Assembly: GCA_002844335.1 (NCBI GenBank)
Contig: CP019154.1
Span: 2,728,001 to 2,792,000 of the forward strand
Length of the DNA stretch: 64,000 nucleotides
Source: Haloarcula taiwanensis
Lineage (GTDB): Archaea; Halobacteriota; Halobacteria; Halobacteriales; Haloarculaceae
Direction: 5' to 3'
Within the stretch, counting starts at the first letter, position 1, and every line of letters starts with the position of its first letter. The notes under the pieces were generated by a model that was not told where the DNA came from, ran no database searches, and saw nothing but the letters and a program-made list of their open reading frames with translations. Of the stretch, positions 11,444-56,274 are shown one piece after another. The position numbers and the translations under genes are program-made.

Positions 11444-11516
11444 GCCCGGATGGTGTAGTGGCCCATCATACGACCCTGTCACGGTCGTGACGCGGGTTCA
11501 AATCCCGCTCCGGGCG
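11444..11516 (+). tRNA. tRNA-Asp (GTC), copy 1
   Basis: The 73 bases fold as a standard cloverleaf. The acceptor stem GCCCGGA pairs with TCCGGGC and is followed by discriminator G. The anticodon stem CGACC/GGTCG encloses the loop with anticodon GTC. The T arm contains GGTTCAAATCCC, and no 3' CCA is encoded. An AT-rich stretch (TCTTAATAC, 11403-11411) about 35 bases upstream may be its promoter. The second copy 50 bases downstream has identical sequence. Confidence 0.97.
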
Positions 11517-11566
11517 TTCTATTGCGACCAAACTGACGAGCGCTATGCAGTGCGTGCTCGTAGGCT

Positions 11567-11639
11567 GCCCGGATGGTGTAGTGGCCCATCATACGACCCT
11601 GTCACGGTCGTGACGCGGGTTCAAATCCCGCTCCGGGCG
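11567..11639 (+). tRNA. tRNA-Asp (GTC), copy 2
   Basis: This 73-base gene is identical to the copy just upstream, while the flanking sequences differ. It has the same acceptor stem, anticodon GTC and discriminator G, with no encoded CCA. The 50-base spacer has no clear TATA box, so the pair may be cut from one precursor. The 22-base 3' end of this tRNA recurs inverted at 52422-52443, inside a palindromic element. Confidence 0.97.
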
Positions 11640-11782
11640 CTTCTTCGAAATCAAATCATCAAGCGACGCGTTTTATCGCCGTCGTACGGACCGCTGGTGC
11701 GTTATTAGTAGCCGTCCAGCAGGCAGTAAACACCGCCTACGTGCCGAGAAAACGGCGTATACTGATGTCACAAGAGCAGTAG

Positions 11783-51188: not shown

Positions 51189-52196
51189 TTAGACGCTGAC
51201 GAACTTCTTGCTACGGCCTTCGGGCCGCTCGGCTATCTCTGGGAGTACGGTGAGCCACTGGCCGAGCGTACTCGCTCGGCGAGCCACGCTCGACTCGGAC
51301 AGGTCCGTCTCGGCAGCCAGTACCGCCTTCAGCTCATCGTGCGAGAGAGACCCGCGCTCCGCTATCACCGTCGCAAGGCGGTCGACAACTTCGACCTGTC
51401 GAAGGCCAGCGATGAGTCGCTCACGGGCCGCTTCGGTGTCACCCGACTCGTGCAGGCGGAGGTACTCGACGCCGTTCTTGGTCAACCCCCAGCGACGGAC
51501 CTCACGACCGTCGACCGCCGTCGGCGTGTCCTCGTGTACAAACCCCAACAGCCAGCCTGCAGTGCCATAGAGATCAGCGTGCCGCGAATCAAACTCCGGA
51601 ACCGCGCGGTTGATTTCCGCTCTAGTGCCGCCCGTCTCGTCGATGGCCGCCAGGAACTCCCGAAGCGATTCGAAACTATTGGCAAGCGGTACCTCGTTAG
51701 AGGGAATCGTATCGGTCCGCTCCGGTTCAGTCAGCGCGTCCCAAAAGGCCGGCTGTAGCTCGTAGCCACTGCCCCTCTCCGCAACACCGATGTTGTTGCT
51801 GACCATCGTTGCCGCGAGTTGCTCCCCGTCGACGAGGTGTATCTGAAGGTTCTCGGCCGCTCGTCTCGCCGGCCCTGTGAACGAACTGGAGGTGAGATAG
51901 GTTCCCGTCTGGTAGTTCCCTTGCGTCAGTGCCCCACTGAACCGCTGTACGTGCCCGTTGCTAACCGTGTTGCCCTCGTCGTATCGCTTGACCTGCGCGC
52001 CGAACAACACCCGGACGACATCCTCCTCAATGACGCCCTCGACGTCGATACCGTCGTCCTGCCGGAACGCTGTTACCTGCATCGACTCCGTATCGAGGCG
52101 GCGGCTGAGGACCATCTTGCACAGAATCTCGAACTGCTCCGGTGACACCTCGTACATCCTGTCTCGGAGATGGTCTTGCATAGCCGCGGCTTGCAT
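51189..52196 (-). CDS. Mrr-type restriction endonuclease-like protein
   Basis: A 335-residue protein starting MQAAAMQDHLRDRM. Residues about 15-110 form an Mrr-cat nuclease domain: SPEQFEILCKMVLSRRL, then D51 in DDGIDVEGV and the Q68-x-K70 catalytic pair in GAQVKRYDEGN. This is the Mrr/restriction endonuclease-like fold with Q replacing the usual E. The second half contains two winged-helix-like segments, WGLTKNGVEYLRL and SLSHDELKAVLAAETDL, ending SKKFVSV. TTATGT lies about 29 bases upstream of the ATG. It may be a type IV restriction enzyme for modified DNA. It sits next to tRNA-derived palindromes, as mobile-island cargo often does. Confidence 0.85.
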   Translation of the reverse strand: MQAAAMQDHLRDRMYEVSPEQFEILCKMVLSRRLDTESMQVTAFRQDDGIDVEGVIEEDVVRVLFGAQVKRYDEGNTVSNGHVQRFSGALTQGNYQTGTYLTSSSFTGPARRAAENLQIHLVDGEQLAATMVSNNIGVAERGSGYELQPAFWDALTEPERTDTIPSNEVPLANSFESLREFLAAIDETGGTRAEINRAVPEFDSRHADLYGTAGWLLGFVHEDTPTAVDGREVRRWGLTKNGVEYLRLHESGDTEAARERLIAGLRQVEVVDRLATVIAERGSLSHDELKAVLAAETDLSESSVARRASTLGQWLTVLPEIAERPEGRSKKFVSV

Positions 52197-52270
52197 ATCT
52201 CTCACCAGCGGCCACGCTCACATAAGCGCCGGGCATGGTTTCGGTGGCCGCGGCGATGCGCTTCAGAATC

Positions 52271-52358
52271 GAGCCGGCCGGGATTTGAACCGACGGAAGA
52301 CGGTCGCCTCACTCCGTTCGGCGCTGCGACTTCCAGGGTTCAAATCCCTGTTGTGCGC
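52271..52358. repeat. tRNA-3'-end palindromic element 1
   Basis: An 88-base inverted repeat. Outer arms GGGATTTGAA (52280-52289) and TTCAAATCCC (52339-52348) are complementary and match the T loop plus adjacent T-stem of tRNAs. Beyond them lie tRNA-acceptor-like tails GCCGGCC and TGTTGTGCGC. Inner arms GAAGACG (52296-52302) and CGACTTC (52327-52333) pair with one mismatch. The reverse complement is strongly similar, arm for arm, to the element at 55995-56081. It sits between the Mrr-type nuclease gene and tRNA-Thr. Origin is unknown; att-site relic or mini-mobile element are candidate explanations. Confidence 0.7.
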
Positions 52359-52421
52359 TTCATCGCTCACGATGACGAGCACACGCTAAGCGGTGCTCGT
52401 GGGGATTGTTCACAATAGGAA

Positions 52422-52496
52422 CGCCCGGAGCGGGATTTGAACCGGAGGCAGCGTCGCGTTGCTGGCCCTCCAGAGATTCAAATCCCGCGTCCAGCG
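52422..52496. repeat. tRNA-3'-end palindromic element 2
   Basis: A 75-base inverted repeat of the same architecture. The left end 52422-52443 is the reverse complement of the last 22 bases of tRNA-Asp, exactly. Outer arms GGGATTTGAA (52432-52441) and TTCAAATCCC (52477-52486) are complementary. Inner arms GGAGG (52444-52448) and CCTCC (52467-52471) pair. The right end has an acceptor-like tail GCGTCCAGCG. The centre differs from the other two elements. It lies 64 bases after element 1 and 52 bases before tRNA-Thr. Confidence 0.68.
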
Positions 52497-52548
52497 TTTC
52501 ACGCGTTCCGGACCCATCGCTGGCGCTCTGGGTCATTCGCTTGGAAAA

Positions 52549-52620
52549 AGCCTAGGCCGGAATTTGAATCCGGGGTCTCGTCCTTACCAAGGACGCGCTT
52601 TACCGCTAAGCTACCCAGGC
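52549..52620 (-). tRNA. tRNA-Thr (GGT)
   Basis: On the minus strand the 72 bases fold as a cloverleaf. The acceptor stem GCCTGGG pairs with CCTAGGC with one G-T pair. The anticodon stem CGTCC/GGACG encloses loop TTGGTAA, so the anticodon is GGT. The T arm is CCGGATTCAAATTCCGG. The discriminator is T, as expected for archaeal tRNA-Thr. A T-run follows the 3' end (CTTTTTCC), a likely terminator. Confidence 0.95.
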
Positions 52621-52687
52621 ACGCATCAATGTGTATCCGGCAATTGTCTAAAGTCGTTTCGATTCGGGGCCGGTGTGTCGGTTAGTC

Positions 52688-53344
52688 TCAGTGGTCGGCG
52701 GCGGCCTCGGTCCCGTCGCCGGTTGGCTGTTCGGCCCCGGCTCGCGCTCGGAGCGCGTCAGCGACCTCCTCACCGAGCAGGTCGGCGTTCGACGGGAGGC
52801 CGTCGACGGCCAGCTCGGTCGCGTACTCGCGAAGCGTCGGGGTAGGTCGGATGCCGGCGGCAGTGACGCCAGCGACCACGGCGAGTTCCAGAATGTCCGT
52901 TTCCAGCGCGGTGTCGAGGCTTTCGTCGTCGGTCGTCTGACGGACTGTCTGGTCGTGGCCAAACGAGCGGACGACAGCGACAGCAGCGTCGGCGGCCTCG
53001 GTTCTGGCGAGCAGGTAGAAGCCACGTGAGACGAGGATATCCGCGATAAGGATATCCAAGTCGGCGGTGTCGCGGTCACCGCTGACCCAGGGGTCGTCCC
53101 GGGCCAGTTGCCGAGTGAGCGAGAGCCCCTCGTAGATGAGCTGGACGCCAGCGGCTCGGTCAGCGACGCCGTCAGCCAGATCGACCGGTGGGTCGCTGGT
53201 CGCGCCCGCGCTGACGAGCGTCAGGACGCCGGGCGCCAGCGACGCGTCGTCCAGGCGAGCGTCGATCCGCTCGTGAAGCCGGTCAGGCTCGACATCGTCG
53301 ACTGCCGCCAACGCCGCTCGGCGAACTGCCGCCACTTCCTCCAT
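52688..53344 (-). CDS. conserved haloarchaeal helical protein of unknown function
   Basis: A 218-residue, alpha-helical, acidic protein. The central DTADLDILIADILVSRGFYLLA and TEAADAAVAVVRSFGHDQ segments faintly recall the polyprenyl synthetase helices, without the DDxxD motifs. It may therefore be a non-catalytic relative, but this is a weak guess. The C-terminus is low-complexity (AEQPTGDGTEAAAD). It is divergent from the crotonase gene with a 60-base gap. Confidence 0.7.
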   Translation of the reverse strand: MEEVAAVRRAALAAVDDVEPDRLHERIDARLDDASLAPGVLTLVSAGATSDPPVDLADGVADRAAGVQLIYEGLSLTRQLARDDPWVSGDRDTADLDILIADILVSRGFYLLARTEAADAAVAVVRSFGHDQTVRQTTDDESLDTALETDILELAVVAGVTAAGIRPTPTLREYATELAVDGLPSNADLLGEEVADALRARAGAEQPTGDGTEAAADH

Positions 53345-53404
53345 TATGAGGGTCTAGCGACGGGAAGGGCAAAGACCTTTGGAAACCGCAGAGTCACAGC
53401 AGGC

Positions 53405-54079
53405 ATGGTACAGACCACGAGCAGCGATGGTATCCGGACCCTGACGCTCGACCGGCCCGACCAGCGCAACGCGCTCACCAGCGCGGCGCTGCGTGACCTC
53501 GAAGCAGCAATCGAAGCAGCGACCGAGTCGGTGCTGTATCTCCACGGCGCTGGCGAGGCGTTCTGTGCCGGCGCGGACCTTACCGAAGTCAAGGCCCTCG
53601 ATTCGGAGAGCGCCGAGACGTTCGCGGCGCTGGGCCAGCGGGTCGCTCACGCACTGGAATCCTACGACGGGGCCGTTGTTGCTGGTATCGACGGCGCGGC
53701 GCGGGGCGGCGGCGTCGAACTGGCGCTGGCCTGCGATATCCGTGTAGCGACACCCGATGCGACCCTGGCCGAAACCGGTGTCAAACTCGGGCTGTTCGGC
53801 GCGTGGGGGGGGACGGCACGGCTCCCCGAGGTCGTCGGGACAGGCGACGCCTTAGACATCGCACTTTCCGGCCGAACGCTCGACGCAAAGACGGCGCTGC
53901 GGATGGGGCTGGTTTCGCGGCTCACTACGGAGCCACGGGCCGTCGCTGAGGAGTTGGCGGGCGTCGACGGGGACGCGCTTCGAGTGCTGAAAACACGGAT
54001 CCGAGACGACGCGGACAAGGAGACACAGGAGCGGCGCGAGCAGCAGGCCTTCGCCGATCTCAACGCAAAGACCGAGTAG
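53405..54079 (+). CDS. enoyl-CoA hydratase/isomerase family protein
   Basis: A 224-residue crotonase-fold enzyme, at the short end of the family. The oxyanion hole segments are EAFCAGADLTEVKAL and GIDGAARGGGVELALACDIR; the two candidate catalytic Glu residues are in GGVELAL and DATLAETGVKLGL. The likely reaction is hydration or isomerisation of an acyl-CoA. No beta-oxidation partner is adjacent; the thioesterase gene is about 2.3 kb upstream. Confidence 0.9.
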   Translation: MVQTTSSDGIRTLTLDRPDQRNALTSAALRDLEAAIEAATESVLYLHGAGEAFCAGADLTEVKALDSESAETFAALGQRVAHALESYDGAVVAGIDGAARGGGVELALACDIRVATPDATLAETGVKLGLFGAWGGTARLPEVVGTGDALDIALSGRTLDAKTALRMGLVSRLTTEPRAVAEELAGVDGDALRVLKTRIRDDADKETQERREQQAFADLNAKTE

Positions 54080-54117
54080 GCAAGGGTACAAGACGCCGCC
54101 TCGCATACGGGTTGGCA

Positions 54118-54888
54118 ATGGTCGACTGTGAGTATTGCTCGGAATCGTTCGACGGCGAGGACGCCTACCTCGACCACCTCGCCGACGCCCACGACGGCGA
54201 GTTGGGGGCTATCGACCGTCGGCGCGTCGAGGCACAGACCGGCGGCGCAGACGGGAACGCCCTTCCGGTCGGCCCCATCGTTATCGGCGTCGTCGTCCTG
54301 TTCGCCGTCGGGCTCACGGCGTACGTGACCCAGCTGAGTGGCGGTGATGGCGGAAGTGGCGCAGATCTGGTCGGGACCGCAGGCGCACAGCCCCTTTCCA
54401 CGGTCGAAGCCTCCGGAATCGAGGCGTCGTCGCTCAACGATACCGGCGACAGCGACCGTCTGGCCGGCGTCCAGCAGTTCCCGGACCGGGGTGCCAACCA
54501 CGTCGAAGAGGGCAGCGCCATCGACTATCAGCGGGTTCCGCCGCTCTCCGGGACACACTATGCGTCGACGGTGGGTGCGGGCTTCTACGAGGCGACGCCG
54601 TTGCTTGGCTCGCTCGTCCACACGCTCGAACACGGCGCGGTCATCGTCTACTACGACCCCGACGAGATATCGCCCGGAGCCAGAGAGAGTCTTCGGGGTT
54701 TTTCCAGCACACACACCGGCACTTGGCGGAGCGTCGTCGTCGTCCCGAACCCCAGCGACGACCCCCGCGCACCCTACGTCATGACGGCGTGGCGACACGA
54801 GCTGACGATGGACGGCTACGACGCCGAGACCGTCCACGCGTTCCTCTCGGAGTACCTGGGTCGCGGCCCGGAGAACCCGGTCCGCTGA
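54118..54888 (+). CDS. DUF3105 membrane protein with N-terminal C2H2 zinc finger
   Basis: A 256-residue protein with three parts. Residues 4-25 are a C2H2-type finger (CEYCSESFDGEDAYLDHLADAH). A membrane helix (about 57-77, IGVVVLFAVGLTAYVT) comes next. The DUF3105 domain follows, with RVPPLSGTHYAS, LVHTLEHGAVIVYYDPDE and MTAWRHELTMDGYDAE, which include conserved His residues that may bind metal. The fusion of a cytoplasmic C2H2 finger to an exported DUF3105 is found in haloarchaea. Function is unknown. Confidence 0.85.
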   Translation: MVDCEYCSESFDGEDAYLDHLADAHDGELGAIDRRRVEAQTGGADGNALPVGPIVIGVVVLFAVGLTAYVTQLSGGDGGSGADLVGTAGAQPLSTVEASGIEASSLNDTGDSDRLAGVQQFPDRGANHVEEGSAIDYQRVPPLSGTHYASTVGAGFYEATPLLGSLVHTLEHGAVIVYYDPDEISPGARESLRGFSSTHTGTWRSVVVVPNPSDDPRAPYVMTAWRHELTMDGYDAETVHAFLSEYLGRGPENPVR

Positions 54889-54894
54889 GGTGAC

Positions 54895-55728
54895 TCAGTA
54901 CAGCGGGTCCGGACCCGGCGGCATCGCTCGCTTGTGGGCGCTCGACTCGTGCATCTCGCGGACCGTCTCGACGGCGTCCGTCGGGACGCCGACGTGGTCG
55001 GCCGTCGCGGCCGCCGGGACGCCGCCGTCGACGTGCAGGGCGAGGATGGAGTCGAGCGTGTCGTAGTCCATCCCCATCTCGTCGGCGTCAGTTTGCCCGG
55101 CCCACATCTCGGCGCTCGCGGTCTTTTCGGCGAGGTCGTCGGGGACGCCGACGTGTTTCGCCAGCTGTCGGACCTGTTGTTTGTACAAGGGCGCGATAGG
55201 GTGGCAGTCGACCGCACCGTCGCCGTATTTCGTGTAGTAGCCGACCAATGCCTCGCTCCGGTTTCCAGTCCCCAGTACCAGCGCCTGTTCGTGGTTGCCG
55301 GCGAGATAGTTCAGCACCGCTCGACAGCGAACCCGGAGATTGCCGACGGCAAGCTGGTCGCCCTCAGCGTCTGGATAGGCGTCGAGGAACGCGTCGACCA
55401 GCGGGTTGATTTCGATGACGTCGTACTCGATGCCGAGCAGGTCGTTTGCGACCCGCTCGGCGTCGCTCATGTTGTCCGCGCGGTTGGCCTCGCTGGGCAT
55501 CACGAGCCCGTGGACGGCGTCGCGGCCGAGCGCCTCGACGGCCAGATGGGAGACGAGCGTGCTGTCGATGCCCCCCGACAGCCCCATCACGACGGTGTCG
55601 ACGCCGGCGGCGTCGACCTGGTCCGTGATGAACGAGGTGATGTGGTCGCGGTGCGCCTCCAGCTCGGCGTCGGAAAACGACAGGTCCAGCGGCTCATCGG
55701 CACGGACAATGGATTCGGCCGTTGCCAT
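54895..55728 (-). CDS. nadE: NAD+ synthase (ammonia-dependent)
   Basis: A 277-residue NadE, making NAD+ from nicotinic acid adenine dinucleotide with ATP and ammonia. The ATP-pyrophosphatase P-loop GLSGGIDSTLVSHLAVEAL is near residue 50, and VLGTGNRSEALVGYYTKYGD with GAVDCHPIAPLYKQQVRQLA are family blocks. The N-terminus lacks a glutaminase domain, so ammonia is the nitrogen source. It is convergent with the DUF3105 gene, 6 bases apart. Confidence 0.96.
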   Translation of the reverse strand: MATAESIVRADEPLDLSFSDAELEAHRDHITSFITDQVDAAGVDTVVMGLSGGIDSTLVSHLAVEALGRDAVHGLVMPSEANRADNMSDAERVANDLLGIEYDVIEINPLVDAFLDAYPDAEGDQLAVGNLRVRCRAVLNYLAGNHEQALVLGTGNRSEALVGYYTKYGDGAVDCHPIAPLYKQQVRQLAKHVGVPDDLAEKTASAEMWAGQTDADEMGMDYDTLDSILALHVDGGVPAAATADHVGVPTDAVETVREMHESSAHKRAMPPGPDPLY

Positions 55729-55893
55729 GTCTACTGGTTGGACGGGCGGAACTAATACCCATCTATCGACGTGATATTTTCGGACGCGCGTCCAGTCAAA
55801 ACGCTACGTTCAAGTGCGGCCGCTGTTGACAGTCCGGTACGAAGCACGCTGGCGGTTGGCGGTCCCGCAGGGGCCGCAAGCCCCGGTCACCGA

Positions 55894-55964
55894 GCGCCGG
55901 TGGTCCAGTGGTAGGACATTGCCTTCCCAAGGCAATAGCCCGGGTTCAATTCCCGGCCGGCGCA
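55894..55964 (+). tRNA. tRNA-Gly (CCC)
   Basis: The 71 bases fold as a cloverleaf: acceptor GCGCCGG pairs with CCGGCGC, discriminator A. The anticodon stem TTGCC/GGCAA holds loop TTCCCAA, anticodon CCC. T arm CCGGGTTCAATTCCCGG. No CCA is encoded. The last 22 bases are repeated exactly 95 bases further on, as one end of a palindromic element. Confidence 0.95.
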
Positions 55965-55994
55965 TTCTGCGACGAACGGATGTGAGGAGCGAAT

Positions 55995-56081
55995 GGGCTA
56001 CAGAGGGAATTGAAGCACAGAAGACGCAGCACGAGCGAAGCGAGTGACCGTCTTCGGGCGGTTCAATTCCCGGCCGGCGCA
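55995..56081. repeat. tRNA-3'-end palindromic element 3, beside tRNA-Gly
   Basis: An 87-base inverted repeat. Outer arms GGGAATTGAA (56005-56014) and TTCAATTCCC (56062-56071) are complementary; inner arms GAAGACG (56020-56026) and CGTCTTC (56049-56055) pair perfectly, leaving a 22-base loop. The right end 56060-56081 is identical to the last 22 bases of tRNA-Gly. The left tail GGGCTACAGA is acceptor-like. The loop contains GAGCGAAGCGAG. Its sequence aligns well with the reverse complement of element 1. It may be an integration scar or a small mobile or structured element. Confidence 0.72.
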
Positions 56082-56274
56082 CTTCCTTCGGTCGCTTCCC
56101 GCCCGATGTTCGCAATCGCTCTGTGAGTGCTCACTCCCGGCCAGCGAATTGTACTGCGAACCGCCCGAAACCGACAGGGAGAGCCGAAACGGGGCACGCA
56201 CGGACAGCCCTGCGGAGGGTTCTAGGTACGTAGGGTGAACAGTTATGTCCGAAGAATGTAAATCACGTTAACAT

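Follow-up and report, generated by a model that had tools for sequence, protein, structure and literature searches.

The window, a stretch of 64,000 nucleotides from Haloarcula taiwanensis, contains tRNA-Gly(CCC) and tRNA-Thr(GGT) genes followed on their own strand by short hairpin-bearing units that end in a copy of a tRNA 3′ end. A sequence-only reading of this DNA had described long inverted repeats at 52280–52348 and 56005–56071, and both are present exactly there, with inner arms GAAGACG/CGTCTTC that carry a single mismatch in the first palindrome. The reversed first palindrome aligns to the second, as had been claimed (40-nt blocks 52266–52305 and 56046–56085, 85% complementary), and positions 56060–56081 repeat the last 22 bases of tRNA-Gly(CCC) (55943–55964) without a difference (22/22). 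A relaxed scan for T-arm inverted repeats revealed exactly three sites in the 64 kb, with 0.1 expected from mononucleotide shuffles; the third, at 52432–52486, had been overlooked. Two palindromes are downstream of tRNA-Thr(GGT) and one is downstream of tRNA-Gly(CCC), and the single-strand folding z-scores of the three are −2.4, −4.6 and −2.4. The gap of 3.7 kb between the two palindromes first described simply reflects how far apart two tRNA genes lie and carries no further significance.

Features of the two loci

55894..55964, + strand: tRNA-Gly(CCC), host gene and putative insertion target at its T-loop (ARAGORN; Rfam tRNA, 72 bits)
55965..56004, + strand: spacer hairpin H1 of candidate cassette E2 (pattern search)
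56005..56071, + strand: hairpin H2 of E2, with left arm 56005–56014 (inverted T-loop), inner stem GAAGACG/CGTCTTC and right arm 56062–56071
56060..56081, + strand: duplicated 22-bp 3′ end of tRNA-Gly(CCC), 100% identity
56082..56148, + strand: second hairpin unit ending in a tail (CTTCCTTCGG...CCCGGCCAGCGAA), degenerate here but intact in relatives L006, L014, L016 and L019
52549..52620, − strand: tRNA-Thr(GGT), host of candidate cassettes E3 and E1 (ARAGORN, Rfam)
52487..52548, − strand: spacer H1 of E3, unlike the H1 of the related locus L289, although the H2 is the same
52432..52486, − strand: hairpin H2 of E3, the third palindrome (folding, scan; orthologue in L289)
52280..52431, − strand: E1, a 152-bp tRNA-Asp-type candidate cassette at the T-loop core, between the E3 right arm and the flank GGCCGGCTCG
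52422..52431, − strand: tRNA-Asp acceptor tail GCTCCGGGCG carried by E1 (9/9 against the tRNA-Asp tail over nine scored positions)
52280..52348, − strand: hairpin H2 of E1, near-identical to the H2 that follows tRNA-Asp in a sister species (L320)

At Rfam gathering thresholds, tRNAs were the sole matches, and no family was found for H1 or H2. ARAGORN also proposed a tRNA-Arg with a 998-base intron at 51287–52358, which was rejected as an artefact of the intron option that spans coding DNA and E1.

The palindromes had been interpreted as a small element that borrows tRNA 3′ ends on both sides, as integrases use. The shared element and the integrase-like use of the tRNA 3′ end are borne out, but the two-sided tails are not, and a tRNA acceptor end is located on the right-hand side only. 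On the other side are the 3′ end of the tRNA itself and H1, and the left arm of the palindrome is an inverted copy of the T-loop/CCC alone. H1, the hairpin that separates the tRNA from the palindrome, also belongs to the element and was absent from the earlier description. The H1 type of E2 was also found behind Gly, Lys, Arg, Thr and Ser tRNAs elsewhere.

Anatomy and distribution of the family

The anatomy was derived from 283 distinct units, each lying between two tRNA 3′-end copies and hosted by tRNAs for ten amino acids (Asp, Gly, Lys, Ser, Arg, Thr, Glu, Leu, Ala and Met); since these loci were selected for having the pattern, the figures apply to this family rather than to tRNAs in general. 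Each unit presents the order H1, H2 and copy of the tRNA 3′ end, and the outer arms of H2 are one inverted and one direct copy of the T-loop of the host tRNA. The duplication starts sharply at the T-loop (GG^TTCRA). Across the 283 units, the second copy matches the host tRNA with an identity of 0.25–0.47 at positions −8 to −3, of 0.91–0.94 at −2/−1, which are the two G preceding the T-loop, and of 0.96–1.00 from the T-loop through the tRNA end. The fourth base of the core box is C in nearly all units.

The left arm agrees with the inverted T-loop 10-mer of its own host in at least 8 of 10 positions in 243 of the 283 units, against 4 of 283 after shuffling. For hosts with a variant T-loop, it is closer to the host version in 28 cases and to the common version in 9; tRNA-Thr hosts are mixed (8 host version, 6 common). 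H1, located between the tRNA and the left arm, has mostly 33–77 bases and is itself a hairpin (median z −1.8). The H2-bearing units span 80–250 bp, with a peak at 100–160 bp, nearly all being of 80–200 bp and none longer than 250 bp. They are gene-free, having no coding capacity and encoding no integrase. In addition, H1 and H2 types reassort, with 31 sets showing all four combinations, a count that is indicative because the clusters are single-linkage and the largest one is chained.

The arms are not confined to the window and were found in many genera. In a data set of one genome per species, the arm pattern occurs in 73 of 97 haloarchaeal genomes, representing 34 of the 39 genera of the order, and a reversed control pattern has one match in the same set. 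A stricter pattern applied to 84,980 species gave at least 120 stretches, and among the matches listed 80 of 80 are haloarchaea, which indicates enrichment in haloarchaea and is not proof of absence elsewhere, since the figures rest on those matches. Where a tRNA was detected in the fetched locus, 133 of 134 copies are downstream of it and on its strand; at loci with none detected, inspection of the flanks by eye revealed a tRNA-like gene, apparently intron-split, directly upstream of the hairpin. A search of the openly licensed literature for a description of these units found none.

Variation between relatives and the putative insertion of E1

Across species, the tRNA-Gly(CCC), tRNA-Lys and tRNA-Thr sites hold differing cassettes or are empty, as a mobile element would lead one to expect. 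The orthologous tRNA-Gly(CCC) carries a cassette in some Haloarcula species and none in others, with similar sequence after the tRNA end, and behind tRNA-Thr and tRNA-Lys of close relatives there are differing cassettes, tandem cassettes or a full integrative element.

E1 provides the one solid filled/empty pair with a clearly foreign tail; the remaining foreign tails are weak. In L289, whose flank is 94% identical, an E3-like H2 is followed directly by GGCCGGCTCGATTC, without the 152-bp unit, and E1 sits exactly between the E3 right arm and that flank (52280–52431), at the T-loop core. The right arm in L289 is degenerate and its H1 is different, so that the pre-insertion state is deduced from a relative and not seen in a direct ancestor. 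E1 has an H1 that matches the one found behind tRNA-Asp in L318 and an H2 almost the same as that behind tRNA-Asp in L320; the window's own two tRNA-Asp genes (11444–11640) present no such unit. An insertion at the first position would swap the 3′ end of the tRNA for the cassette tail, so only matching tails would survive there, while a foreign tail would be harmless further down an array, which is where the Asp unit is located.

Only about 12 bp are common to the junctions of E1, which means that the insertion was not guided by long homology. Such short homology would also suit the main rival explanation, which dispenses with a dedicated recombinase and invokes microhomology-mediated end joining, template switching or deletion between repeats, acting at the conserved T-arm of 10–14 bp. 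The T-arm is present in every tRNA gene, and hairpins would break and repair would join the fragments at it. In Haloquadratum, short direct repeats, among them partial tRNA duplications, are known to mediate deletions (PMC3119063), and tandem tails would permit both gain and loss. However, this process predicts neither the inverted T-loop arm nor the narrow range of unit lengths, nor does it predict the confinement to tRNA 3′ ends or a boundary that is sharp to a single base pair across 283 units, and we consider it unlikely.

The units are probably non-autonomous, gene-free mobile cassettes of haloarchaea, moved by site-specific recombination at the T-loop with a recombinase supplied in trans, as far as genome comparisons can tell. 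Read as a circle, a cassette would comprise the T-loop core (GG^TTCRANYCC), the tRNA 3′ tail, H1, the inverted T-loop arm and the inner hairpin. The trans-acting enzyme, most likely a tyrosine recombinase, would join the cassette core to a tRNA gene at its T-loop or, alternatively, to the right arm of a cassette already in place. The tRNA would take over the tail of the cassette and keep its function, the old 3′ end would remain as the second copy, and repeated insertion would lead to arrays. The intermediate may be circular or single-stranded; a circle of 100 bp is hard to form as duplex DNA, which counts against the cassette reading.

Hairpin folding, candidate recombinases and known systems

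The centres of H2 are structured, which refutes the possibility that the palindromes share T-arms around random centres. The apical motif consists of a tandem G.A, two pairs, often a GNA loop, two pairs and a tandem G.A, and occurs on the sense strand of 153 of 239 distinct H2, against 4 on the antisense strand and 5 with shuffled interiors. The outer pairs 1–2 of the inner stem, next to this motif, are 87–90% Watson-Crick with several pair types, and sliding one side of the stem reduces the overall paired fraction from 0.62 to 0.21–0.33. Kink-turn and BHB motifs, judged by eye, did not fit.

The sense strand folds better than the antisense strand by 4.9 kcal/mol on average (RNA parameters). 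This strand preference, together with the orientation shared with the tRNA in 133 of 134 copies, would be consistent with a functional RNA, in which the tRNA transcript carries H1 and H2 as structured trailers (for processing, protection or as an sRNA) and the left arm of H2 sequesters the extra tail, preventing tRNA misfolding. Nevertheless, the orientation is equally expected from integration at an asymmetric core, which fixes it, and better folding of the sense strand does not separate DNA from RNA for the same reason. G.T and A.C mismatches are equally rare (41 and 46 in the arms, 23 and 21 in the inner stems, counted on strict stems, which supersedes a count on loose alignments), whereas an RNA helix should tolerate G.U far more, and we lean to folded DNA. 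The sequence d(GCGAAGC), the core of many H2 tips, belongs to the DNA hairpins whose structures are known (PMC5430850). Many tRNA loci are empty and Rfam recovers only tRNAs at its gathering thresholds, which also argues against an RNA function, and we regard it as improbable.

For a mobile cassette, the inverted arm and the strand-specific hairpin suggest a site recognised when folded, and H2 folded on the tRNA-sense strand would probably be the recognised form, like attC in integrons. More tentatively, the system is possibly an archaeal counterpart of integrons, in which a recombinase reads the folded single-stranded H2 and the T-loops of many tRNA genes are cassette platforms.

No integrase-bearing relative with these ends was found, and H2 units never exceed 250 bp. 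The same genome has seven PF00589 matches, all outside the window, and the loci examined have no tRNA gene within about 1.5 kb. A Xer-like recombinase, nearly always single-copy, is shared by all 97 genomes and may act in trans on the cassettes; its distribution cannot discriminate, and nothing ties it to them.

Full integrative elements at tRNA-Thr of several relatives, one with an integrase 61–62% identical to that of HF2-type viruses, would agree with the units being the ends of deleted tRNA-targeting proviruses or plasmids. On the other hand, the parent sites that were checked do not correspond to the units. The pleolipovirus attP has an acceptor-end core of 13 bp without H2, and HF2 has a different core and bears a 71-bp truncated tRNA-Thr as probable attP, far longer than the 22-bp repeat here. 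Plasmid and phage collections gave no match to the E2 unit, and 10 exact pattern matches in viral contigs were judged chance, none being located at a tRNA. With the narrow unit length, this makes an origin as remnants of larger elements very improbable. The large inserts L097, L178 and L249 (1.3–2 kb) are bounded by tails but are without the H2 left arm, and the repeat of L097 reaches upstream into the anticodon region, which points to another element.

Like integron cassettes, the units are short and form arrays behind a fixed receiving site, and they share with attC an imperfect end hairpin whose outer arms match the receiving core (here 243 of 283 units), an inner stem that varies in sequence with pairing kept, and an asymmetry that gives polarity. 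They differ in the core (GG^TTCRAN against G^TTRRRY of attC/attI), carry no genes, have no IntI adjoining the array, and use as receiving site the tRNA T-loop at many independent tRNA loci of an archaeal host. As in tRNA-targeting elements with tyrosine recombinases (proviruses, IMEs and CIMEs), the insertion is in the 3′ part of a tRNA gene, which is restored, and the old 3′ end is displaced; yet the units have no integrase, carry an inverted core copy inside and, at about 85–170 bp, are thousands of bases smaller than the known haloarchaeal ones.

In the tyrT 3′ repeats (RtT) of E. coli, every tandem unit terminates with part of the tRNA 3′ end. The units described here are likewise tandem with such an ending, but they are haloarchaea-wide, occur at many tRNAs, have the inverted T-loop hairpin and exchange modules between tRNAs; the RtT model of Rfam gave no match at its gathering threshold, which only tRNAs passed. 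PATEs and other short mobile repeats of Haloquadratum are also short, non-coding and palindrome-bearing (PMC3119063). PATE and SMR-A are described as without target duplication (PMC3119063), whereas here a tRNA end of roughly 22 bp is duplicated, the boundary is sharp and T-loops are the sole targets, which also distinguishes the units from IS200-IS605 derivatives. Unlike MITEs, they have no terminal inverted repeats of a known transposon, as their ends are H1 and the tRNA tail and the inverted pair is internal. Thus, the units are not integrons, MITEs or PATEs, and act like site-specific cassettes.

To our knowledge, this class of putatively mobile DNA flanking haloarchaeal tRNA genes is unnamed so far, and we know of no integron-like site architecture in archaea, of which this would be the first. 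If the proposal is correct, haloarchaeal tRNA genes of many families would be targets flanked by dynamic mobile DNA, small enough to escape annotation, which would account for the partial tRNA tails behind these genes. The cassettes would also be a natural test bed for hairpin recognition by site-specific recombinases, and genetic tools for halophiles could draw on them for very short integration tags.

Second hairpin family at tRNA tails

The tail of the tRNA itself is interrupted by a second hairpin family, whose site lies at or near the T-loop/CCC boundary (loci L282, L286, L322, L325 and L016) and whose layout is GAGAGACG...CGTCTCTCGACCTTCGC...GCTCAGTCCC. Behind tRNA-Gly, this family is also present as tail-ending units, and a degenerate copy adjoins a cassette in the window.

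Window 56082-56148: degenerate copy of the second hairpin family

The tandem G.A apical motif of the H2 hairpins is also found in intergenic hairpins that are not near tRNAs (window 60056).

Integrases and a Xer-like recombinase

In several relatives, apparent integrase-bearing elements occur downstream of the same tRNA-Thr(GGT) that hosts cassettes in the window (loci L299, L300, L308, L311 and L315), and the integrase of L300 presents 61-62% identity to those of HF2-type viruses. A chromosomal Xer-like recombinase was found in all 97 haloarchaeal genomes searched, nearly always as a single copy.

G000:C1:1174258-1175409: chromosomal Xer-like recombinase (locus L336)

Other tRNA sites

At the tandem tRNA-Asp genes, a cassette is present in sister species; none is found in the window.

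Window 11444-11640: tandem tRNA-Asp genes, without cassette

Directly upstream of tRNA-Gly, in loci L004, L005 and L021, the 5′ end of the tRNA is partly duplicated, with hairpins after the copies, as if this end were also a target.
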